Of a stretch of DNA of 64,000 nucleotides, positions 48 to 63,905 are shown piece after piece. The stretch comes from Bolinopsis microptera (taxonomy: Eukaryota > Ctenophora > Tentaculata > Lobata > Bolinopsidae). The notes beneath the pieces were generated by a model. That model was not told where the DNA came from and searched no databases. It was given only the letters and a program-made list of their open reading frames with translations. The DNA lies in contig NC_087083.1 in assembly GCF_026151205.1 (NCBI RefSeq), positions 5,496,460 to 5,560,459 of the forward strand, read 5' to 3'. The translations under genes and the position numbers were made by a program. The first letter of the stretch is position 1. The number at the start of each line of letters is the position of its first letter.

Positions 48-374
48 ATGTCAAACAATGACGGAGGTGATAATTTGAAAAGTAGATGCAACAAAATTTT
101 ATCCGAATTTGCTAATAACGAGTTAGGTCGTGGAAAGAGTTTTAAGGAAATCCATGAATGCATATGCAGGACTTCCTACGAAATTCTTTCTAGCTACGAT
201 AAAAGTGTCGAAAATTTCGAAATATCTTTGAGCGAATTAAAAGTGGAATTTGAGCGGTACAAATCGGAACTAACCATCAATGTTGCAAAATTCAATGATC
301 ATTTAACCGAGGCTAGTGCGCTTATCCACTATTATATGGCAGTGGTCTTTCAGGAAGTCAGGTCGAGAATTTAG
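48..374 (+). CDS. Short open frame upstream of the 973-codon protein; possible N-terminal part of the same element
   Basis: A 108-codon frame starts at an ATG in a reasonable context and is rich in Glu, Lys and Ser. Residues about 60-95 look helical and coiled-coil-like. It overlaps the start of the larger frame in another reading phase. Just downstream (375-408) a 17-bp unit beginning ACCGTACTATATTTT is directly duplicated. The protein reads like a genuine N-terminus rather than chance translation, and in related animal proteins a Glu/Lys-rich N-terminus is common. How it connects to the next frame (short intron, separate protein, or change of frame) cannot be decided from sequence alone. 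Function unknown. Confidence 0.4.
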   Translation: MSNNDGGDNLKSRCNKILSEFANNELGRGKSFKEIHECICRTSYEILSSYDKSVENFEISLSELKVEFERYKSELTINVAKFNDHLTEASALIHYYMAVVFQEVRSRI

Positions 375-3237
375 ACCGTACTATATTTTGCACCGTACTA
401 TATTTTGCACTGAATTTTCTAAAACAGACATCGAGCAACATCTGTCTAATCTACCAGATTATCGCCACATTAAGTCATCCGATCCAAATATTGAGCTTGG
501 GGACCTGTTTAATGAATACTGTTCGCACGTCCTTACGTACCATTTCGAACCAAGTTTCTTTAAACTGGGTACAAAATATAGTTTAACTGGCCCTAAAGGA
601 GGGAAAAGATTGTCCGATTATGCACAATCTGTCTGCTTAAATTACCTTTTACTTCCGAGAAATCATGGTATTTACAGTGAGTTAAGACCCATACTTGCTG
701 TCCACAGTAATGCTCGGACACGCTACAAGCCCCACCCTCTAGTTGACGATCTTTATATCCCAAGAATTCCTAGTGTCGCTGATGAAAAAGTTGAAATACT
801 AAGAGAACTCCAATCAATTTTGCTGGGGACTCCCCAGATACCACTTTTGTATGAAGGTTGGGATTTGGTTAAATCATGTCCTAAACAGGTAGCAGCTAAC
901 TCACGATTAGTTGACCTTATGTCAATTAGAGAACATTCCCTAAGTTTCCAGTCTGGTAATAATTTCTTGAAGGCCAAACCAAAAGAGCATTACCAAAATT
1001 TGTCGATTGACGAGGTGAAATGCACCTTAAAGAGTTATAGTTTGATTTGTGAGAGCGACTTCCAAAAATACGACGAAAGTTTTCTTAGAAAAAAACTTGA
1101 AGAAGCTGAGTCTACAAGGAGCTTTGCAATGTGGTATGATCACGCCGTTATTTTAAACAGAAGTTACATCCTTTTTGTCGTTTGGCTTTTATACAGCAAG
1201 TCCCTTTACCAATCAAATGATCTATGTGAAGGGGATTTACAAAAAGCTGTCGAGCAAATTTACATCCAATATATAGCTAAGTCGCCTTCGACAACCAAAA
1301 GCGAAGAGGCATTACAAGAATTTAGAACTAACCAGTTAGCTGCCTTTAAAGTTACAATTAAAACAAACTGCGGAATCGAATTCTCGGACAGATTAAAATT
1401 TGTGAATGGCGATGCGCCTGTAAGGAGTGTTGAGAATGGTTCAAACAAGAGTGGACCGTATCGTAATCCTACCTTATTAGAATGCTTCCCTATAGATCAT
1501 TATGAATATTACGAAATTGTAAAATTTGAACACATGACATTCGACAAAACTACAAAACATGCTAATAAAGGTGGGTTCTTCGAAAATCCTGAAAATCGCG
1601 GAAAATCGCTACAAGATTTAAAAGATAAACCCGCCTCAGCATTAGAACTAATGAAAATAAGATGGCCACATAAGCGTCTTGATAATATGAATAGCGAACA
1701 GATAAAAGAGTTTTTGAAAAATGACTTAGGGGGTATAAGGCGACCCCCTATTCTATTCATGGCTACTCCTGATAAATCACCTGAAGAAATTGGTCTTGAA
1801 GGGGCTGAACTTTTGGGAAATGAATGTCTTCATGGTCTCAGAGGCGAAACCCTCAAATCATTCAAACACATTCCAGGACCTCAAGGTGACGGACCATTAA
1901 AATTAGTACATGAGATTATATCCAATTGTTGTAATTTTGATTACGGATCAAAACACGAAAAATCTGGCGAGTCAGTTTTTAAGAATTTAATTGAAATTGT
2001 CCAGAAACTAGAAATGAAATTATTTCCAGACGGGTTGTCCTGTAATATTTGCGGGGATATTTTTACTTTGTCAATTGTGACCAAGTGTCCTAAATGCCTT
2101 TATTATACTTACTTCAGAGCACTTCTAGAAATTCATATATTTGGATACAAAGATGAGTCTAAACGGTCAGGTGCCTCCACATTGCTGCTTCATAATATCA
2201 TTTTTGTATGGTTTAAAACTTTGAAAGAAATACAGATTACGATACCTACTGCTCTTAAAGTTATTAATTCTATTTACTTCCTCGGCATAGTTTACTACAT
2301 GGGTCCAACATTCGAACTTACTAACTTTTTGTCAGTGCATGCCGGACGCATGGAAGATATTTTTCGGCAACTGAAGGTCTCTGCTCACAGTTTTACCAAT
2401 CGAAAACACTTTCAAGAGAGTTTCCTGCTTAATGTCCTAAAACGTCAAGAAATCTCCAGATACTTTAAAACTGCAAACAATTTCAAAACTTATCGTAGCA
2501 CAGTTTCTTCTGCCATCACTGCATTTCATCAAAGAAGTCCTATTCCTGACATTGTTTTTACCAAAGAATTTATAACGTCCAACATCCAAGACTTTGCAGG
2601 ACACGTTTATCGCATTTCAAATTTTGTCGTTTCCAATACTAATGAACGATATATGAGTTTGTCCTCGGAAAACGACCTTAAATTCTTTTCCTCTAGAGAA
2701 TGTCGCTCAGAAAACTGTCTGTCATCATGCCCACCATGTTTATCAAAGTTATTTCCTGATTTCCCAATCCACAATATATTGACATCAACGATTGAGATAA
2801 TTCTAAATACCAAAGCTGCTATCTATCAGAAATTTGCTTGCAACATTTTTGTCAATGGTGGGGTAGATTTCTCCAATTTGTGTAAACTATTAGGTCAGGG
2901 CCCACTATTAACACCTGATATCATAACGTCAAGCGAAATAATAGAAAATATTAACATTGATAGGGAAAATCCTAGCAGACAAAAGCTGCCAGCAAACTTT
3001 TCGTCAATGTTGAAATTATTGATTGAAATGTTTCCCTCTGATCCTGAAAAATACGATAAGCTTAAACACAGCAACATGGCTAAATGTATTTCCAAAATTC
3101 TTAACGCTGTCCCAGATGAAATTATTCACTTAGACAGTAGTAGTCGCAGATTAGCCTTGGCATCATCTAGTTGTATTAAGGATCCAAAAGACAGTAATAA
3201 TAATAGACAGCATAATGAATTAGCATACTATAAGTAG
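316..3237 (+). CDS. Large unclassified, probably transposable-element-derived protein (about 940-973 aa)
   Basis: One uninterrupted frame of 973 codons; the first 35 or so may not be translated because they overlap the preceding frame. Visible features: a W-x-D-H motif followed by a hydrophobic stretch near residue 272, a GDAP motif near 370, a SAP-like helix pair before IRRPPILFM near 475, an ECLHGLRGE motif near 505, and a CxxC...CxxC zinc-ribbon-like knuckle near 576-594. From memory, this order (W-x-DH, a 'GD' strand, SAP-like helices, E-x-LH-x-L) matches large unannotated proteins repeated in coral, sponge and fish genomes; this was not checked. It has no recognisable host function and no introns. 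No terminal repeats were found around it. It may be a recently active unclassified element or a captured copy. Confidence 0.55.
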   Translation: MRLSTIIWQWSFRKSGREFRPYYILHRTIFCTEFSKTDIEQHLSNLPDYRHIKSSDPNIELGDLFNEYCSHVLTYHFEPSFFKLGTKYSLTGPKGGKRLSDYAQSVCLNYLLLPRNHGIYSELRPILAVHSNARTRYKPHPLVDDLYIPRIPSVADEKVEILRELQSILLGTPQIPLLYEGWDLVKSCPKQVAANSRLVDLMSIREHSLSFQSGNNFLKAKPKEHYQNLSIDEVKCTLKSYSLICESDFQKYDESFLRKKLEEAESTRSFAMWYDHAVILNRSYILFVVWLLYSKSLYQSNDLCEGDLQKAVEQIYIQYIAKSPSTTKSEEALQEFRTNQLAAFKVTIKTNCGIEFSDRLKFVNGDAPVRSVENGSNKSGPYRNPTLLECFPIDHYEYYEIVKFEHMTFDKTTKHANKGGFFENPENRGKSLQDLKDKPASALELMKIRWPHKRLDNMNSEQIKEFLKNDLGGIRRPPILFMATPDKSPEEIGLEGAELLGNECLHGLRGETLKSFKHIPGPQGDGPLKLVHEIISNCCNFDYGSKHEKSGESVFKNLIEIVQKLEMKLFPDGLSCNICGDIFTLSIVTKCPKCLYYTYFRALLEIHIFGYKDESKRSGASTLLLHNIIFVWFKTLKEIQITIPTALKVINSIYFLGIVYYMGPTFELTNFLSVHAGRMEDIFRQLKVSAHSFTNRKHFQESFLLNVLKRQEISRYFKTANNFKTYRSTVSSAITAFHQRSPIPDIVFTKEFITSNIQDFAGHVYRISNFVVSNTNERYMSLSSENDLKFFSSRECRSENCLSSCPPCLSKLFPDFPIHNILTSTIEIILNTKAAIYQKFACNIFVNGGVDFSNLCKLLGQGPLLTPDIITSSEIIENINIDRENPSRQKLPANFSSMLKLLIEMFPSDPEKYDKLKHSNMAKCISKILNAVPDEIIHLDSSSRRLALASSSCIKDPKDSNNNRQHNELAYYK

Positions 3238-5249: not shown

Positions 5250-6158
5250 TTACTTACTTACTTGTACTTGATTAGGTCTCCTCAATCATTCGAGTGGCCT
5301 GCACCAATGAACTCCCGTTTGTGACGTATCATCTCCCTCCAAAGTTTGCGGTCACTAGCCATCTCGCTCGCTCCTTCTAGGTCTATGTCAGTGTTTCCTG
5401 TAAACGCTGCAGCATCTTCCAGCAAACATTTCCTCCAGTTCTTTCTTGGACGGCCCCTAGATCTTCTCCTATGGGCAGGGGTCCAGTTAAGCAGGTACTT
5501 AGGAAGCCTAGTGTCTGGCATTCTGGTGACATGGCCAAACCAACGCAGGCGGTTTGCTCCTATGTACGTCTCTACTGGATTTATCTTTGCACGCTCCAGC
5601 ACTTCAGTGTTTCTAACCCGATCGAGCCATCTTATCCTAAGTATTCTCCTCAAGCAACGCTGATGGAACACCTCAAAGCGATGTAGCTGCTTTTTGGTTG
5701 TGTTCCAAACCTCACTACCATATAGCAATATTGTCAAAACCGCTGCCTTATAAATCCTGATCTTTGTATAAGACTGGATGTTGCGGTTTTTCCATATATT
5801 ACTCAGTTGATTGAAGGCTCCGGAAGCTTTCTGAATCCTCGCTGACAGCTCACGGTCGATAGTACCGTCGCTGGAAATAATTGTACCTAAGTACGTAAAG
5901 TCACTAACTTGCTGCACTGGTGTGTCTTCAACAGTGATGTTCACTGTGGCTTTTTTCGTGTATGGCCGTTGAGAGGTTGCTTTACCAATGACCATAGCCT
6001 CAGTCTTTTTACCATTGATTCTGAGACCTCCCTGGGCACCATACATACACAAAAGGTCAGTTGTTTCTTGAAGACCTTCCTCGCTGTTATCCAGTACAGC
6101 CATGCCATCTGCATAATCTGTATCTAACACAGTGATATCATCAACAAGCGGACTGATA
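5250..6158 (-). mobile_element. 5'-truncated LINE (RTE-like non-LTR retrotransposon), C-terminal part of reverse transcriptase
   Basis: The minus strand (5282-6158) encodes the end of a reverse transcriptase and the domain behind it. Visible are the YADD-box region, here reading DYADGMAVL, so the second catalytic Asp is Gly. There follow FTYLGTIISSDG, YGSEVW, RCLRRIL, and the LRWFGHVTRMPDTRLPKYLL and GRPRKNW motifs typical of RTE-type and related LINEs. The element ends on the minus strand in (AAGT)n, visible on the plus strand as ACTTACTTACTTACTT, a common RTE-type tail. GGGGCCAC flanks it at 5242-5249 and 6159-6166 as an 8-bp target-site duplication, the left copy being array sequence. The fragment is 909 bp, so most of the 5' end was lost at insertion. 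Given the changed YADD box it is inactive. Confidence 0.85.
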
Positions 6159-6782: not shown

Positions 6783-7643
6783 TAGTAGAGGCTCTTACGG
6801 GCAAAAAGACGTGTTTTCTGCTACGAGTTTAGAGACCTAACCGCTAATTGGACACAATAGTATGATGTCTAAGGATCGATAATATGTTAAGAAGTATAAA
6901 TTTGGCCTTATTAGTCACGTGCTATACCAATGCGCGTTTTAAACTTTGACAGTCTATTACTCTAAGGCAAATAGAGTAATTATATTCATATTTTGTCAGC
7001 AATAAGATCACATTATTTTCTATTTAGTGTGAAAATATGAGCTAGAACGGACATAATCTCGCTGAGTTATAGCTGTTTGAAATTTATGATGAACGCGCGG
7101 GTGCCAATTGATAACAACTAAATGCTTTTGCGCGTAGTGCGCGTCGAAAATTTGGCAAAAACGCTTGCGGAGTGAAAATATTCAAACTTCGATAAAGTAT
7201 ATTAAGTGGGTACTTCTCGGAAAGGAAAAATTTAGGCAAACACGATGTGACTATTTTTGGGTTGATTTAATACAACTGCAAAAAATTATTCAAACTTCAA
7301 GCAAAAAAGTCAAAATTTTTACCACTTTATTGGATTTTTACCTCAGAACAAATAGAGGGATTTGTTTTATTTTTATACAATCTTGTGCGGCTGTCTTTTA
7401 GCTATCTTTATGCAAGTTTTGCCGACATGCCAACAAAATTAACTTGCTCAAAATATCAAAAAACATGGTTTTTTGGCCTATTTTTGGCCCAAAAATCGGT
7501 TTTTTGCGATTTTACCCCAGAACAATCAGTCCAATTATCTTGAAACTACTTTCAATCGATTCTACGGTCAAAAATACGTCTAGAAAGGTGTATCTGGGGT
7601 CCCTAACGTATCGAGCAGACAATGCCCGTAAGAGCCTCTACTA
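6783..7643. mobile_element. Non-autonomous DNA transposon with 21-bp perfect terminal inverted repeats
   Basis: The ends TAGTAGAGGCTCTTACGGGC(A) and its exact reverse complement bound 861 bp that interrupt the fourth/fifth unit junction of the 184-bp array. GTA occurs on both sides (6780-6782 and 7644-7646), consistent with a 3-bp target duplication. The interior is AT-rich and has no transposase-like frame; the small frames inside are short and featureless. The superfamily is uncertain: a 3-bp duplication suggests PIF/Harbinger or CACTA-like transposition, but GTA is not the usual Harbinger TWA. Confidence 0.8.
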
Positions 7644-19000: not shown

Positions 19001-22000
19001 TTCCCCTAAATTCGATCTAGAAAATTCCGCCAATTGGCTTTTATTATGATAAAACGGGATACAAATTTTAACGTGGCATAATCGGCGTATCGTAGACAGA
19101 CTACTAAAAAGGCGTGTGTCAATAGAAGTTATTTCCTATCGTAGTATAGTATTCATTACAGCTTTTTGGATCTTTTGCTCTTTTGTAACATAGAGATTTC
19201 AGAGGTTCTTATCACTCCACATTGCAATGTAATGCTCTGATTAATCATCCCTTCAGTTTCCAAAAATCTGGTTAAATTCAACCCCTTAGGTCACGCTGGA
19301 AAATACAGTTGTCCGGTATGTACTAAACAAGGAAAGTCTACCACGATGGGGAAAGGGAGTACAACAGGTAGATATGATGTTATTATGCAATATGTATAAT
19401 TTGTATATATAGCATATACAGGCTATTCAATCGGTTAAGTCGGTATTCGGTAAACTGGGCTTTTAGGTACAACACCGACAGGCTATAACATATATAAGCC
19501 GGCTTATGACCGGCTATAAGCCACTTGATTGTCTAGCTAAGCGACGGCTATAAGCCGGCTTATAACCATTTTGGGGGCAAAAGTGCTTATAGCCGGCTAT
19601 AAGATACTGAGGCATTTTGAACGACTTTAAGCTCGATTATAATAGCCTAACGGTGAAGTGCCTAGATGCCGTGGCAATTCGGTAGTGTGGCAAAGCACGG
19701 TCAACGCACGGTTAAGGCACGGTTAAAGCACAGTTAAGGCACGGTTAAGGCACGGTTAAGGCACAAGGGTTACATAAGGCACGGTTCTTAAGGCACGGTT
19801 AACGCACGTTAACTGTATATGCTGCTTGGGGCTGGCATGCCCCTTAGCATAGATTCAACGTAGGTTTTACTTCGTTAATATGTTCAAGATTTGTCTTTAT
19901 TATCAGTGTTGTGACAGTGCTGCCAAAAATCAGTTTCAAAAATAGTTTATAGCATTTTCTCAATATATCACACCATGTTTAAAAGTAAGACTCAACGTTG
20001 ACTCATGACTGACCGAGGCCAGGTAACTGTGCAAACGTTTGGCTTGTTTCTCGGCCTGTGTTGGCCCAATTCGGATACTTCTGCCTAATATGAGTTGCCT
20101 ATCATACTCACTCGAGGAATCAGTGAAATGGAACAAATTCTTAGCTCAAATCGAAATTTCATGGTGTGCATTGTCTTTTGAAGCTTAACTTACACCAAAA
20201 CTGAAAATGGGACATCTAGCTTCTCAGATATCCGAGATATAGAGATATAGGACATAAAGTAATAATTCGTTACAGTGAGATCACCTGTTTAGGTGGCAAG
20301 CGAAATGCAGCATGGGAACCTTATTATTAACTGCGTGATTACGCAATCTTGTCATGTTATGGTGTTTTATCAAGCAGCAACCTTATCAATTTTGCTCACG
20401 AGCTTCACAAAACACTCTGTTGTTTCAACTTCGTTTGGCATAATTTTTTCAGGATCGGTTAAAAGGTTGTCGCAGTTGCGACAATTTTAACGTGTTCATG
20501 AAAGAGCAAACAATCAAAACAAGGTCGATAGGATTAGGGTGTGGTCCTGAATTACGGATTTTCACAATTTAGGCGATTAATCCTCAAATGAGTAGTTTCA
20601 GTATGTCGTATGCAAAGTTCCGAGCCTCTGACATGAAAAATGAATCTGAAATATTGCAATAAACCCAAACGTTTGCACAGTAACTTTTGGACCCATATGA
20701 TGTACCATTCTTAATTTAGATGATACAGTGTTGTGTATTTCCTCATTTGTTTGGGGATCTATTATTATCATCTCGAGAACCAAAAGGTCTCAGTCATTGT
20801 GATACATGTCAACAATGTTGCGAAATACCGTGTCACATTGCCACGTTCATTACCCTATTAGTATTAGGCACTGGCGATTTGGTTTCTTTTGCTACTTGGT
20901 TTATTGGATCAATAAATTTTGCCTCTGATCACGTGGCGAATCACGAACTCCAAGTTCATGTTTAGCCTGGCGCCTGCTTTTGTATACAGCAAGTGGTCGT
21001 CAAATTGAGGGTTGCTGTCTCAGCAACACAGAAATTTATGTGTCTGAGTGAAGTCTGTGAGTGCCGCACCGGAAAAAAGTTACATGTTTAAAGTCAATTT
21101 TTAAATGTCTAAATTCAATGTTAATCATTTTCATTAATTCATTAATTCATCATCATTTTTACCCAAAATCTTACTTTTACTTTTTTTCCAGTTCAAGTAC
21201 CGGAAGTTGATAGTCACGACAATCTAGTCACTTATCCACTACGATCTGTGTCGAGTATAGAGGTGGGTGAATATGGATACGAGGGATACCCCCTGCTTAC
21301 TGCTGTGCCGGAGTTTCCTGTTTTCAAGTGTCATAGCATCGATTATATGAATTGTATTACACTGGGGGTGTTTGCAAAGATCTTTAGACTGATTATGAAA
21401 ACAGTCGGAGGTGCTGGAGAATTGCGGGTAGCCCAAGCAACTGTCAACATCAAAGGATACACCGGGATAGAACATGGTCCCCGATGTACATCGGACTTCG
21501 CTCACTACAAAAGTAGTGAGTGGAGAGATTGGGGACTACTGTTCTTCCCCAAAACATTCGAGGTGCTGATCGACGAAAAAATGCTGCAGAAGGAATTCTT
21601 TGAGAACTTTATTGATTTAACAGTAGGGATGTCTCTTCTGTTGAGCGATGATATAACAGAGGACAACTTGGTTCAAGCAGAAAAATTTCTTAACAGATTT
21701 TTTATTCAGTTCTGTCGGCTGTACGGCGAGAAGTATTGCGGCTTCAACTTCCACCTAATCACTCACTTGGTCGAAAAGGTGCGGTATCTTGGACCACTTT
21801 GGGCTACGTCCCTCTTTATTCACGAGGGCTTTAACCAAACCCTATTAAAGTGCTATCGCCCAGGGACCTCAGGTCTTAAGCAAATGGCAGAAAGATTACA
21901 GCTGCGACTGACCGTGCTGCAACTTTTCTCCTTTGTTTCGGCCAAGAAGAAGGACAGTATAGCTTGCAAACTTGCCGAGCGAGTATGGTTTCCATTGGAG

Positions 22001-22507
22001 CAGCCTGAAATTGATGTTGAGACCAGCTCATTGTTCAAAAGTGTAACTTTGTCTGAGTGGAATGTATGTCAAGAAGTGAAAGTAAAGCTTACCACTCTCT
22101 ACAATGCTGATATCAGCGATGAAGTAGTTATATACGACAGGGTTAAATACAAGAGAGACATTTTTAGTACTGGTCGTTACTCAGGCGGTAAAAACTCTAA
22201 ACGAATTGATCACTTCATTTATTGCAAGGACTCTTCCCAATTTGGTAGAATAGACGATATCATAGTGATAAATGACGAAACATTCATAACTTATGCTAGG
22301 CTTGTCGTTGACAACAATTACGATTTCAACATTTTTCCGAGTAACATCAGGGATATCCCACATATTAAACGTTGTCAGGCGACATCAGAAACAAATGTTC
22401 TGAAACTTAGTAAAACTAACTTAATTTTAAAGAAATGTATTTGTCTTACCCTCAAAGACAACTCCATAATGCTTGGCTATATGCCATTTCCGTCGGAAGC
22501 CTCTTAG
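13039..22507 (+). CDS. Five-exon CACTA/EnSpm-like transposase-derived gene, open reading frame complete (795 aa)
   Basis: Exons by GT-AG sites and phase: 13039-13646, 15167-15296, 16799-17054, 19290-19367, 21192-22507. They sum to 2388 nt, and every junction keeps the frame. Exon 1 has a duplicated acidic 18-residue block and a zinc-ribbon-like cysteine set. Exon 2 has TLSLNLDGVETAKSASNSLY, exon 3 an INEMPEYVR helix, exon 4 YSCPVCTKQG, and exon 5 SIDYMNCITLGV, SSEWRDWGLLFFP, and FNFHLITHLVEKVRYLGPLW followed by FIHEGFNQTLLK. This order is that of large animal transposases of the CACTA-like group. Candidate acidic catalytic residues are D230, D408 and E569 (inferred from motif position). The start is the first ATG behind an AG acceptor at 13028. 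Introns hold a foldback, a MULE piece and minisatellites, yet the exons stay open, so the gene may be domesticated. No CACTA termini were seen. Confidence 0.75.
14034..14770. mobile_element. TTAA-flanked giant foldback element (two arms of about 360 bp)
   Basis: The element is one near-perfect inverted repeat. It starts GGGGGCCGGGG plus a G-run, then TCTTCACCAAAATTCTCTCG, and ends with the inverse, CCCCGGCCCCC. The centre lies at about 14394-14414. TTAA stands at both ends (14030-14033 and 14771-14774). The arms carry no coding potential. It lies in intron 1 of the transposase-derived gene. The TTAA flanks suggest piggyBac-type mobilisation (inference). A second foldback with the same end design is at 49753-51112. 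Confidence 0.85.
15360..15565 (-). mobile_element. MULE (Mutator-like) transposase fragment
   Basis: The minus strand reads an IQNCPEDTGTILVHSEKAVM segment followed by a SLLKSLPRWEVRNCNFHPCQ segment and AVQKHFRDL. This matches the MULE transposase core block, usually TDFE-x-A-x(2)-NA ... V-x-GC-x-FH-x-CQ. The usual acidic residue before FE is replaced in this copy (HSEKA). Only this part remains, so it is a fossil within intron 2 of the CACTA-like gene, on the opposite strand. Confidence 0.6.
15650..15672 (+). repeat. Long poly-G tract
   Basis: An uninterrupted run of about 22 guanines. Other long G or C runs occur at 14041-14056, about 17325-17340, about 48949-48970, the tips of the foldback at 49753-51112, and 55079-55095. 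Confidence 0.8.
17325..18970 (+). repeat. Composite repeat: GGACAT-type arrays inverted around a 1.2-kb pyrimidine tract
   Basis: At the left, after a G-run, GGACATAGGC repeats (17341-17400), followed by GGACAAAAA(C/T) repeats (about 17500-17560). The middle (about 17570-18785) is almost pure C/T, built from TCCTCC and CAGTCCTCC units. At the right (18797-18970) AATGTCCGCC-type decamers repeat, which is the inverse complement of the left array motif. So the two ends are inverted repeats made of short tandem units. It lies in intron 3 of the CACTA-like gene. The long C/T run makes the coding strand pyrimidine-only for over 1 kb. Predicted short frames here are repeat artefacts. Confidence 0.8.
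19430..19815 (+). repeat. Two short tandem repeats
   Basis: 19480-19610 has CCGGCTATAAG / CTTATAGCCGG units in both orientations. 19686-19810 has an 11-bp unit GGCACGGTTAA repeated about ten times with variation. They lie in intron 4 of the CACTA-like gene. Confidence 0.75.
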
Positions 22508-28573: not shown

Positions 28574-31500
28574 TTAGAGATGTTTGAGGAGGTCTCTAGC
28601 TACCAGCATGTGCATAACCTGGAATAGTTTTAATAGTTCTGGGATAGTATCGGGTAGTTAATTAAAGGTATCATGGTAAACAATAACATATAATTAAGGC
28701 AAATCATGTAATGTAACGATTTATTATAAATCGTTACACTTACATGATTTGCCTTAATTATATAAAGTGGATTTATAGAATTACATTTAAACGATTCCAG
28801 ACTTCGTTGGATCTGGAGTCTCCAATACAATTGCAATTTCTTAAATTTGTTTGCTGAATCTGTCGATGTAGCTCGACTTATCTCCCAGAAAAAAAGGTTC
28901 ATAACTCGGAAGTCTAACCTTGATCCAAACTTTATAATAAAGTTTTGATCAATGTTAGACTTCCAGGTTAAGTAGTTGGTAGCATCGTGAATAAACTGAG
29001 TTAATTCACGATGCTACCAACTATACTATACTACTTAAATATTACAATTTCTCTTACCTCGCTTGTTCCTTCCAATATTCTGTGTACGCGAGAGTCCCTC
29101 CAGAACTGCTGAACCGGATAGGACTTCAGGTAACCGTAACCACCGTGCAGCTGTAAAGCGTCATCACACACCTGCAGGTATTAGGAATGTAATTCAGGTA
29201 ATGTAGGTAATGTAGGTAATGTAGGTAATGTAGGTAATGTAGGTAATGAATGCAATGAAGGTAAGAGAGAAAGTTCCGAAATATAAGAGGTATAGGGAAT
29301 ATTAATATTATATAGGGAATGTAGGGAAAGTAGGGATGTAGAGATGATAACGTTATTACGAGGTTTAGGGTATCACATGATTAGTAATAATACAAGTAGG
29401 ATTTGGGAATGTCGAGGAAACTAAAACTCAACGTTTGTCCACTTTGACGTAGACGGTGTTTGAGAATGTAAATAACCTTGAAAAGTCGCTCTGTAGCGTA
29501 CAGCTTACACATAGCGCACAAGGCTACTGCGTTGGGTTCCTTCGAGTCCAGAGATTTAGCTGCCTGGGATAGAGTCGAATAAAAACAAACAATCGATGAA
29601 CTAAAAGGGTTATTTGAGAAAGCTATGACGATGTAATAATCGCTATTTAGCAAAAGTTGAGTGTAGTTCCCCGCACCTGTCTAACAATGAGCCGCGCGGT
29701 GGTGAGCTCGGTGGCCATCTCCGCCAGTTTAAACTGAACGTGTTGGTTAGCGTTGAGAGGCTGGTTGAAAGCTTTGCGGTCGTTAGTGTAGTGTAAAACA
29801 TCTTCTAAACACTGCTGTGCTGCACCTGTAATATGCAGTTAGAGCGAGAGACTCCAGCTAAACACTGCTGTGCTGCACCTGTAATATGCAGTTAGAGCGA
29901 GAGACTCCAGCTGAAAGTTACGAAACCTTAAAATCTTTCAATCTTAAAATTTCTCATATTTTAAAATAATAAAACAAACATTGACCCGAAAAAGCTTAAA
30001 CTATACGGGCACCAACTTACCTAGACTGCAGGAAGCAATGTTGATGCGGCCCCCGTTTAAACCATGCATAGCAAGGTTGAAGCCCTGTCCCTCCGCTCCC
30101 AGTAAGTTTTCACACGGTACCTCTACATCGTCAAAGTTTACAACACAAGTTGGCTGATTGTTCCACCCTATCTGGGGAATATCTTTATTTGATCTATAAT
30201 TATTATAAATTATTAAAAATAATTAATCATTATATTAGGGGTCGTTCAAATATTATGTAATCAATTTTTTGATCGTAACCAGCGTAACCAGTTTTAGACA
30301 TAGCTATTGTGTCAAAATTACACTAGCGTAATCATTTGGAAAGATATTTTACTAATGCATTATGATTTTCTGTTGTAGTACCTTCTTTTCTTTCTGTCCG
30401 TATGATATCCCAGGAGTGGCCGTGTCAATTATAAGAGCTGACACCCCTGAAGAGACATGTTCATTGTTCAGGAATTAGCACACATTCCAGCAGGTAAACA
30501 TAGATTAGCACTCTGACCAATTAAGTTATTAATATTGGAAAAGAATTAAATTTTGAAATACATTTTCGGATTTCATATGATGAGCGCCAACTTTTCTTAA
30601 TAGTTTTTATTTCAAGAGTATTTGCTTTTTGAGCAGATGTCCTGATCACGAGATATCATACTGGTAAACTGCTCCGCTCTAGATCAGGTTGCGCGGCTCC
30701 GATCAACTAACATGTGAAATCTGGAGCCGCGCAATCGTATCTGCACTAAAAAGTGGTCGAGTTCTGTCTTACCTTTAGGGCCTTTCCCTCCCGTCCTCAG
30801 CATGACAACAAGCAAATCTGTAACTCCAGCACCCGATATAAACGCTTTTGATCCGTTCACTATGTATTTGGATCCTGTAGAATGTAGATATCAATATCAG
30901 TCAATTGTAGCATTACCATCGCTACCAGCTTTGCAACTTTCAGACGTTGCTCACTTTAATACTTAGAATTTGCGAAGCGTGCAATTAAACTCGAAAAAAA
31001 AGAAGAAATTAAATTTCCAAGAGGAAATAAACCGTCAGTAGTAGCTCGAGTAACCAGAGCAGCAGCATCACTCCCGGAACCCGGTTCAGTGAGACAGTAA
31101 GACGCTAACTTCTCCATTGTACTCAACTCAGAACAGTATTTCGCTCTCTGATCCTCCGTTCCGAATGTGTCTATCATAGCGTTCACCATACTGCGCAATT
31201 TTAGTTTTAGTTGCGCTTGATTAATAATGAATTTGGTTTGCGAAATAAAGTTTATTAGTAGTAATAACGTGAATAACGTAAATAAATTTAAGAAAAGGAC
31301 TTGATTTGATTATTAAAAGGTTGATCAACATATCGATATGAAATACTGCCATGAGTAGAAATAGAAAATCTTATGTACAATGTACAATGTACATGGTTAC
31401 TTTAATGAACCATAACGTTTGTATAATTAGCTCATAGCTTAGCAGCGAAGTAGAAGTTTTAGCGCATGACCCCGAATAACTAAAGCCTTTAAATATATTA

Positions 31501-61104: not shown

Positions 61105-62842
61105 TCACTCAACACAAAGTTCGAAGTCTTTGTATTGGTCGTAGTCCTCGCGGTGGTCTTCAAGCCACTTGTTGTAATCCTGGGATAAATACCGGTATTA
61201 TGTAACAAATTAACAGAATTCCAGCGTCTTTTATTTTAAAATTTGTGTCGTTTTTATACCACATTATAATAAACATTATTATCACAGATAAAGTTTATGA
61301 CCAGGATCATGCACGGCTTTCTCTTGACTGTATTTGTTACTAACGACTTAATCATGGAACACTGTGGCTGCTGTTTGGCTGCAGGTTACCAAGCAACTCA
61401 AGAAAACCCTACCATGGTTTTAGCATCAGCATCCTTTTTCGAGTTTGATTTGACAGCAGGCTTAGCTTTGGGCTCCCAAGAGGACTTTTCGCTGAGAGGG
61501 TAGAGGGTAAACCCTGCTTCGTCGGCTGATTCTTCGCTATCGTCTGGAATATGGGAGAGGTAAAAGAAAATCTGCCATTAATGTCACCAAATACAACATG
61601 TGCTTTTATTAAAATAAAGATTATGAAATATCATGAGAAAATAAACTAACCTCCAAATAAAAGGGATGAATTTTGAGCTTCCTCGCCAGTTTCTAAGGTC
61701 GATTTTGCCTTGAAAGTTTGCCGTAATGGCGTCTTCAAGAGAGAACTATTTCCACCCTTCTTAGATTTATCACCTTTCTTTGTTGCTGCCTTACTCTTTT
61801 TGGGCTCAGGCTTTTTAGCAGGTTTTGTCTTTGGCCTTTTTGGTAAGGATTTGATCTCTGGTTTCAAAGCAAGGTTGGAGTAATTCAAAGAGTTTTTCTG
61901 ATCAGGTTTTCCAATAGGACTCATCGGGCACTCGAACAAGTTCATACTCTTTTCCAGTGTCTCAAGCTTTTCAATTTCTTTCTTGGATGCAACAATGGGT
62001 GAGATTCCTGCGAATAATGGGTACTGAGATTTAACATTTTTGTCCTCCACGGCAGAAGGTATGCCCCCCTCGCTGCTCCTTCTCTTTTTCTTGTTCAAGA
62101 TCATAGAGCACACTGATAGGGATTGTTCTTGGTTTTGGACTTCTGCTGCTGCCTCCACACTTACACGTTGTTTTCTTGTACAGGTGGATTTTGGGATTTT
62201 AAATATTTGATTGGGAGAACGAGGTTCTGGTTTTAAAGAAAGTCTCATCGGAGATTTGGAATCTTTTCTCTTGGATGGCTGAGGGCTATTGGGGCTTTTA
62301 ACTTTGACTGGGGTTGCAGGCTTTTCTTTTGAAACTGTATTTTTTCTTTTGGGCGGAGTCAAAGGAACATCAGGAGCCAGGGAAGCTTGTTTATTTTGCT
62401 TCTTGGATTTTGTATTTGTTGCATTGTTGAGACGCAACACAAACTCATCTGTTCCTGGATCAGTGCTGGACTGCCTTCTTCCCACCTCATAGACTAAACC
62501 ATCAGGTGTTACTTTCGTTACTTCTTCAGAATCAATGCTCTTGTCAAGTCTGCTTCTCTTACTTTTCCTAGAACTTATTTGTTGTTTACTTTCTGTTTCT
62601 TGTTTCACTTTCTTTGGTAAATTATCCGGATCTTGCATTGGTTGTTTCCTCCTTTTTGCTGCTTTGGGTGTGTTGCTATTTGTAAAGCCAGTCTTTCCTG
62701 GTGACTTGGTTGTTGGAGTTTCATTTTCCTTGTCCGATTTTTTGGGCGTTTTTGTTTTGATTAATTCCACAGCAGTATGTTCTTTGTCTTGTGCTACGTT
62801 ACATTGCCTTTGCAACCGTGGCCGTCTTCTCAAGGTTACCAT
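61105..62842 (-). CDS. CDCA5: Sororin (cell division cycle-associated protein 5), cohesin protector
   Basis: Sororin binds Pds5 and blocks Wapl, so that sister chromatids stay joined until anaphase. Exons 62842-61651, 61543-61413 and 61179-61105, 1398 nt in frame (465 aa; human 252). Most is basic, disordered and Ser/Thr-Pro-rich, with a KEN degradation box (KSDKENETP, near residue 38). Two blocks identify it. LFAGISPIVASKKEIEKLE near residue 275 matches human LSGVSPVVCSKLTEV. The last exon, DYNKWLEDHREDYDQYKDFE then LCVE, matches the human C-terminus DEWAAAMNAEFEAAEQFDLLVE residue for residue in spacing (W, aromatic, F-x-L-x-VE). Invertebrate sororins are usually hard to recognise. The start MVTLRRRP has a good Kozak context (GCGATGG); an ATG 33 bases upstream (62875) is in frame, but an AG acceptor lies between them. 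Confidence 0.88.
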
Positions 62843-62875
62843 CGCCTGATCTGAGATAAATTGATAACACCGCAT

Positions 62876-63199
62876 ACCATAAATGTGAAACGATTTAAAA
62901 TTATTTATTAATGCTATCAGGATAAGTATAGCTCCTTATATCAACACTAAATTGGAAACAAAATTAGGTTAACCGTTCTATCAAGACAGTGGACTCACAA
63001 AATTATATTCTTATATTCAATTCATGAAAGTCATCTTTGAAACTAAACAAAATTCAATCGATAATATGCAACACTCAAAAACCATATAATACCCGTGCCA
63101 TGCTCATTATATAATATTAAATATACAAAATGTCATGGTATTCTCAAAACAGTCAATAGCTAAGCTTATCTGTAACAGTTTATCTACTAGATCGAAATT
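62876..63199. other. Intergenic AT-rich spacer
   Basis: No exon or repeat recognised between the sororin start and the next gene's likely stop. Confidence 0.5.
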
Positions 63200-63905
63200 T
63201 TAATCTTCTTCCGTGGGATCTAAAGAAGCTAGAATCATTAATTAAGGCTTAATACACTGACATATATCCCAACATTTCTGGATTCAGTAGCGATGAGGTT
63301 AAGCATCTTTTCTCCGGTGTCCTCTATCACGAGTAATGTTCCAGAAGGGAGGTGAGTTTTGCAGGATCTATCCATGAAGTTTATCCCCTGTTGTGGTTTG
63401 GCTTTTATTGGTTGAGTAAAAAAGGTTTAAATGTAGCAGGTCTACTTAATAACTAAGGTGACAGTGTCTGTAGCTCTTCAGATCTGGTTAATTATTACAA
63501 TTAGCTATTTAAATAGTCATATTTTATGATAATCTACAATATGGTATCTGTATTATCCGTGTTATCTGCATTTCCACGAAGGTAATTATTAAACATTACC
63601 TGATTAAGGTAATTACTAAACATTACCTGATTAAGGTATTTACTAAACATTACCTGATTAAGACTGTCAGTCCAGAACCAGATCACATGAAAAGCTCGCA
63701 GACCTTTCTTCTGTCCACGTTTCAGGTAGAATTCTGTGTTATCGTTCGGCTCCTGTATAAACAGGACCATGTCTTCGTGTGGGATATCAAATGTAGTCTC
63801 TGGGATGGAATGCTTCATTAAGATTTTAAATATTATATGATGTTTCTGCAGTCCCACATAGATTGAAAAGGTGAAAAAGCTCAAACACAAATAAAGTTGC
63901 TGCAA
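63200..63905 (-). CDS. 3' end of an unrecognised multi-exon gene (runs off the window)
   Basis: Three exons can be joined in phase: one ending at 63654 (or 63627, or 63600), 63387-63258, and a short last exon 63228-63200 with stop. Encoded features are a hydrophobic segment (LYLCLSFFTFSIYVGL, if the upstream part is exon), then ETTFDIPHEDMVLFIQEP, GQKKGLRAFHVIWFWTDSLN, HLPSGTLLVIEDTGEKMLNL and an acidic end SLDPTEED. Frame is kept at both junctions (phase 0, then phase 1), which supports a real gene. I do not recognise the family. The upstream part lies beyond 64000, and the boundary of the first visible exon is uncertain. Confidence 0.5.
63582..63662 (-). repeat. 27-bp tandem repeat (three copies), each with a splice donor
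   Basis: Units 63582-63608, 63609-63635 and 63636-63662. On the minus strand each contains CTTAATCAG|GTAATG. The three donor positions leave exon ends at 63654, 63627 and 63600. The unit is a multiple of three, so each choice keeps the frame and adds nine residues (VMFSKYLNQ, VMFSNYLNQ). Confidence 0.9.

Follow-up and report, generated by a model that had tools for sequence, protein, structure and literature searches.

Tandem alternative 5′ splice sites, in which at least two consensus donors stand at one exon end, include the GYNNGY class. Internal tandem repeats at exon-intron boundaries have been described in human duplicated genes (PMC2812944), intron sliding is reported in Drosophila near intron pairs (PMC2891723), and short repeats can make introns (PMC4974935), as do 24-nt repeats in fission yeast (PMC3629103). 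Boundary repeats, sliding and repeat-made introns are known from these papers, and the array described here, in which a 27-bp unit carrying a splice donor is present three times, is a further case of a known kind. It lies near the end of a 64,000-nt stretch of Bolinopsis microptera DNA (C12:5496460-5560459), the whole of which was analysed and is referred to as the window. A published annotation drew on both RNA-seq and Iso-Seq reads (PMC10232365). The array resembles the human repeats in that a tandem repeat spans an exon-intron boundary, where it can change splicing or add repeats to a protein; the human repeats, as presented in PMC2812944, are supported by transcripts and were compared between paralogues, whereas the ctenophore array is known from the sequence of one genome. 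With tandem 5′ splice sites and the Drosophila sliding cases, it shares equivalent donors whose spacing is a multiple of three and a boundary that is movable in frame; it differs in consisting of three near-identical 27-bp copies, read in one species. Repeat-made introns also involve a short tandem unit with an AG/G[TC] word, which reads AGGT in the review and AGGC in PMC3629103. There, however, a new intron arises, whereas the array places extra donors on an existing intron, at a position common to canonical PLOD. Intron gain by tandem duplication does not fit this locus, since steps of 27 or 54 nt are shorter than the shortest reference intron and the intron position is common to the PLOD gene on C6.

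A sequence-only reading of the window had described a 27-bp unit repeated three times, with almost no change, at 63582-63662. This is what we find on the minus strand: in the register in which the unit starts CTTAATCAG, copies 1 and 2 differ by one base, copies 2 and 3 by one base and copies 1 and 3 by two (Table 1). Tandem Repeats Finder (TRF) reports 63579-63662 with a period of 27, 3.1 copies, 96% matches and a score of 154. A search with a 62-base query from the array, in which very common words were skipped, found one place in the 264.65-Mb assembly (232 contigs). The 21-base core with up to one mismatch occurs at three places in the genome, all within the array; with three mismatches allowed there are 16 places in total, the same number as for the reversed control. 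A single genomic place, with near matches at the level of the control, argues that the array is not due to chance. A dispersed repeat or mobile element was rejected because the unit has a single genomic location. The triplicated donor is real and local and is probably recent, and its location at the end of a coding exon is plausible.

Short tandem arrays are frequent in this region, TRF giving 54 rows over the 64 kb of the window. The 9-mer AGGTAATGT, which is also found in the array, is repeated 7.7 times at 29196-29264 of the window and lies, on the minus strand, just upstream of CTGCAG and an open frame that we take to read like acyl-CoA dehydrogenase. At L002, repeated words around AAATCGGGGTTTT occur at 5370-5490 and 6900-7200, beside a run of about 25 G. 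Two long open frames of the window, at 307-3237 (976 residues) and 21146-22507 (453 residues), had no Pfam match. On the minus strand, a 429-residue frame at 61646-62850 has strong acceptors at 62850 and 62845 just before an ATG at 62842, with an AATAAA at 62909 upstream; to judge from these signals, the acceptors could be a trans-splice acceptor or reflect an operon-like arrangement.

Table 1. Coordinates of the array and of the predicted exons and signals around it (positions in the window)
Feature	Position	Strand	Basis or remark
Predicted penultimate coding exon, with donor 1	63654..63799	minus	acceptor 6.41, donor 8.44, spliced alignment
Predicted intron of 266 nt for donor 1 (239 nt for donor 2, 212 nt for donor 3)	63388..63653	minus	coordinates
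Predicted last coding exon, phase 0, then stop	63241..63387	minus	acceptor 7.24
AATAAA, possible poly(A) signal 3′ of last exon	62904..62909	minus	motif
Repeat copy 1	63636..63662	minus	carries donor 1 (exon end 63654)
Repeat copy 2	63609..63635	minus	carries donor 2 (exon end 63627)
Repeat copy 3	63582..63608	minus	carries donor 3 (exon end 63600)
CTT microhomology bounding array	63579..63581	minus	equals first 3 bases of copy 1 (63660-63662)
GGTAAT/ATTACC as inverted words (copy 1 deviates by one base)	63582..63655	minus	array self-folds as RNA

Each copy holds the donor CAG/GTAATG, and the exon ends of 63654, 63627 and 63600 given in the earlier reading are exact. All three ends are in phase 0 and, as that reading had also claimed, are open into 63387, up to a stop directly after 63241. 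Splicing from any of the donors would give an open product, since the unit length of 27 is divisible by three and no in-frame stop occurs in it: the insert peptides, VMFSKYLNQ and VMFSNYLNQ, are free of stops and would lengthen the product by 9 residues with the end at 63627 and by 18 with the end at 63600. Frame-keeping duplication of a donor had been called rare, a view that our counts and the donor-bearing arrays elsewhere in the genome (see below) weaken. A 27-bp unit taken in the same register stays open at 21 of 32 other donors of this genome; when units of 15-60 bp are chosen freely, 23.5% of the 40480 choices keep both frame and openness.

The strength of the splice sites was assessed with donor and acceptor models built on 32 of the 35 introns that spliced alignment gave for five CCT genes in the same genome. 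Three of the 11 introns in the CCT8 alignment were dropped before model building for their poor sites; this alignment, in which just 149 of 514 residues are identical, is the source of 8 of the 32 model introns. Each of the three array donors scores 8.44, the scores being equal because eleven identical bases surround each donor. This value is in about the top 1% of GTs in the window (fraction 0.01) and is reached by 15 of the 32 true donors when left out, while no other GT from 63900 to 63200 scores above 3.76, the value of the next best. Three consensus donors at 8.44 are thus found at one exon end, as in tandem alternative 5′ splice sites. The acceptor at 63387, with a score matched by 19 of 32 true acceptors, is the top-scoring acceptor from the array to the next gene, and that at 63799 is matched by 20 of 32. 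The reference introns (n=32) span 106-2399 nt. An ATTAAA is also present at 63204. The 54 bases at 63653-63600 have a GC fraction of 0.259 and a codon score of 0.01, which is intron-like, compared to 0.442 and 0.38 for 63818-63654; this difference speaks for donor 1 being the older end of the exon. Exon 2, beyond the intron, has an unremarkable codon score of 0.13, and 29% of 1723 open 49-codon frames are as good.

The exon ending in the array had been taken to start at ATG 63818. The three donors and the acceptor 63387 stand, but the start is probably another: the exon most likely begins at the acceptor 63799, and 63799-63654 is most likely the next-to-last coding exon in a divergent PLOD-like gene, the upstream exons of which lie on the same strand past the end of the window. 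The putative exon at 65909-65749 weakly matches procollagen galactosyltransferase 1 (COLGALT1) and LH3 (E 0.0008-0.003), and the viral protein R699 also matches it (E 0.0025). A joined query matches, over 106 residues, the open frame of a paralogue at C1:2952225-2952557 (37%, E 1.7e-13) and also matches canonical PLOD on C6 (36%, E 3.3e-6). These matches to C1, C6, LH3 and COLGALT1 indicate a relationship to the PLOD family in the glycosyltransferase/accessory part. In Pfam, the joined 263-residue reading, made without exon 64194-64027, matched no PLOD or glycosyltransferase family and gave one below-cut-off match at E 0.13; the gene was absent from the eight genome matches of a human PLOD query at E up to 1. 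The HxD motif (RPHHD) and a distal His of PLOD are iron-binding. In the alignment both are absent here and in the C1 paralogue and present in C6 PLOD, and because HxD is absent we refer to the gene as PLOD-like and not as a lysyl hydroxylase. The paralogue, at C1:2951904-2953220, is a 454-residue open frame in one exon.

The identity of this gene and its exon chain are supported but not proven. Spliced alignments, with the C1 paralogue protein as guide together with the splice-site model, were run at four settings. Exons at 65909-65749, 65513-65412 and 64741-64561 were found in all four and one at 65135-65078 in three; an exon from 64194 was also found in all four, its end varying between 64091, 64078 and 64027. 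The join of 63799-63654 to 63387 was recovered by the looser pair of settings, the two stricter ones ending at 64091, and the loosest setting reached 63387 via a zero-length step at 63599. When the tail of the guide was shuffled, 1 of 300 scores reached the real 80.3 (mean 52.3, sd 8.0). As many as 105 of the 300 shuffled guides also led to the junction to 63387, which is therefore drawn by the site model alone. With human PLOD guides, alignments at low penalties wandered via weak sites and mostly missed the last exons. Two introns are common to the PLOD-like gene and C6 PLOD: one of phase 1, after PLFT here and after PLLS in C6, and one of phase 0, at Q/GIN here and at Q/GGG in C6. A third, of phase 0, roughly agrees (LK/RM versus WL/DM), and the C6 introns after INFQ and VRDVD and the intron after LFNI of the PLOD-like gene lack a counterpart. 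The shuffled-guide test and the two shared positions support the PLOD-like exon chain.

In the part that would hold the C-terminal lysyl hydroxylase domain, the last exons alone are not significantly PLOD-like: of 2000 shuffles, 658 were as good as the joined tail against C1, 1542 against C6, 1618 against PLa and 275 against PLb. In a gapless test over the junction, 83, 477 and 427 of 500 shuffles were as good against C1, C6 and PLa; against PLb only 18 of 500 were, yet this match fell outside the expected register. The distance between anchors is 113, 122 or 131 residues here (+0, +9 and +18), 112 in the C1 paralogue and 124, 124 and 127 in the others of the family. These lengths are in or near the family range of 112-127 and do not decide among the donors. 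A return to the family length through +18 was considered and then abandoned once exon 64194-64027 had come to light.

The array is predicted to fold on itself as RNA. Folding of 63570-63680 gave -27.2 kcal/mol (z -3.19), with none of 200 shuffles as stable, and the same stretch folded as DNA had a z of -3.36. The single-copy hairpin is weaker in copy 1 (-2.5 kcal/mol) than in copies 2 and 3 (-6.4 kcal/mol). For donors 1, 2 and 3, the probability that the U1 site is open was 6.2e-4, 3.5e-5 and 6.4e-5 with 150 bases folded, compared to a median of 6.0e-3 for the reference donors, of which 1, 0 and 0 of 32 were below these values. With 250 bases the probabilities were 1.0e-4, 5.7e-6 and 3.3e-5, with 0, 0 and 0 of 32 lower; with 80 bases they were 3.0e-2, 5.6e-4 and 1.3e-2, with 20, 0 and 16 of 32 lower, so that donors 1 and 3 are at this span as open as ordinary donors. 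Compared with the U1 sites of donors 2 and 3, that of donor 1 was more open by approximately 18-fold and 10-fold over 150 bases, and by 18-fold and 3-fold over 250 bases.

We consider it probable that the array is an amplified boundary of the divergent PLOD-like gene, at which three identical donors would add 0, 9 or 18 residues, with donor 1 as the original one. The amplified segment of 27 bp lies over an existing exon-intron boundary and is made of 9 exonic bases ending in CAG and 18 intronic bases. Its three copies would have arisen when replication or repair slipped, not long ago, from one CTT microhomology to another, a step in which the GGTAAT...ATTACC hairpin probably assisted; the hydroxylase part of the gene would have lost the iron-binding HxD motif. 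Whichever of the three donors is spliced to 63387, the reading would then stay open, the protein having its basic length or being longer by 9 or 18 residues. Donor 1 (63654, +0) is expected to be the original exon end and to give a main product, donors 2 and 3 being minor or variable. We infer the slippage origin, its recency, this order of preference and the use of any donor from the features described above. Literature searches on competing or duplicated donors listed no paper on three identical donors, which is weak evidence of absence; in PMC1877881, elements set between competing donors shift the choice of donor, and the part of that paper on which we draw holds no rule for identical ones.

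It is also possible, at somewhat short of an even chance, that a single donor is used and the other copies are silent. This could be the first donor, the rest being plain intron, or the last, the array being exon as far as 63600. Such a reading agrees with the amplified-boundary explanation on the nature of the array and differs on its function. The intron-like composition of 63653-63600 speaks for it, and the hairpin favours donor 1. A rule that gives preference to the intron-proximal site among identical donors would favour donor 3 and hence the +18 product. On the other hand, the shared bases around the donors give them equal scores, and no sequence feature makes one of them clearly dominant. 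If at least two donors are used, the locus would be a natural test of how the spliceosome selects between identical donors spaced at 27 nt, whose local RNA structures already differ, and would show that minisatellite slippage can alter protein length, or move an intron, with the frame intact. If one is used, it would illustrate the ease with which an animal genome rich in repeats acquires decoy donors. We regard as quite unlikely a bolder version, in which the array is a live intermediate of frame-keeping intron sliding, a polymorphic and hairpin-prone minisatellite whose copy number in the population sets a graded protein length in 9-codon steps.

The remaining alternatives concern the gene, the route of splicing and the assembly. 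A separate small gene of 104, 113 or 122 residues from ATG 63818, as modelled in the sequence-only reading, is unlikely; the frame is open from this ATG through the array and, of all six frames of the stretch, is the one with the highest codon score, but the predicted protein has no paralogue in the genome at E up to 10 and no PDB match up to E 1 and E 10, its 104-residue form has no Pfam match above the cut-off (only DUF5733, E 0.082), and the acceptor at 63799 (6.41) has phase 1, matching the upstream same-strand donors 64027 and 64561. Joining of the exon to the downstream gene through the acceptor at 62845 (phase 0), instead of or besides 63387, seems improbable. The acceptors at 62850 and 62845 score 8.08 and 7.66, and the latter runs in frame into the frame at 61646-62935; however, the AATAAA at 62909 intervenes, the downstream frame has its own ATG, and the position and phase of 63387 are common to C6 PLOD. 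That the copy number is an error of assembly is very unlikely, as the copies are non-identical, although miscounts of short tandem repeats do occur. Least credible of all is recursive splicing of zero-length exons, with the inner CAG/GTAATG serving as acceptor and donor. For the inner CAGs the acceptor scores are 6.01 and 7.58 and the donor score is 8.44, and the loosest alignment setting stepped from 63654 to 63599, but the steps would be 27 or 54 nt against 106 nt for the shortest of the 32 reference introns.

Donor words in tandem arrays are found elsewhere in the genome. Pairs of CAGGTAAGT 10-40 bases apart gave 496 matches, compared to 0 for the reversed control; CAGGTAATG pairs gave 346 (27 in the control) and pairs of a point mutant, CAGATAAGT, gave 100 (3 in the control). 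Counted by eye, 12 separate arrays occur among the matches listed of the 496 (C1 to C10:1.5 Mb), whereas the mutant forms 11 on these contigs and 15 when its 100 rows are taken together. As the mutant count is similar (11 versus 12), there is, among the matches listed, no clear enrichment of donors in arrays over the point mutant. Fourteen loci taken from the 496 fall into six arrays, of which that at C4:1262426 looks like an array at an exon end and that at C4:3730100 may be one; Pfam found no family in the exon pieces of either. At C4:1262426-1262554 an open frame appears to end where a series of eight GTAAGT begins; their spacing of 20 bp is not a multiple of three, and another open frame follows after an acceptor. 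At C8:7268823, C1:891031, C1:19562328 and C3:16372942 there are minisatellites of 37-45 bp whose units run from GTAAGT or GTAATG to CAG and resemble tandem mini-introns.
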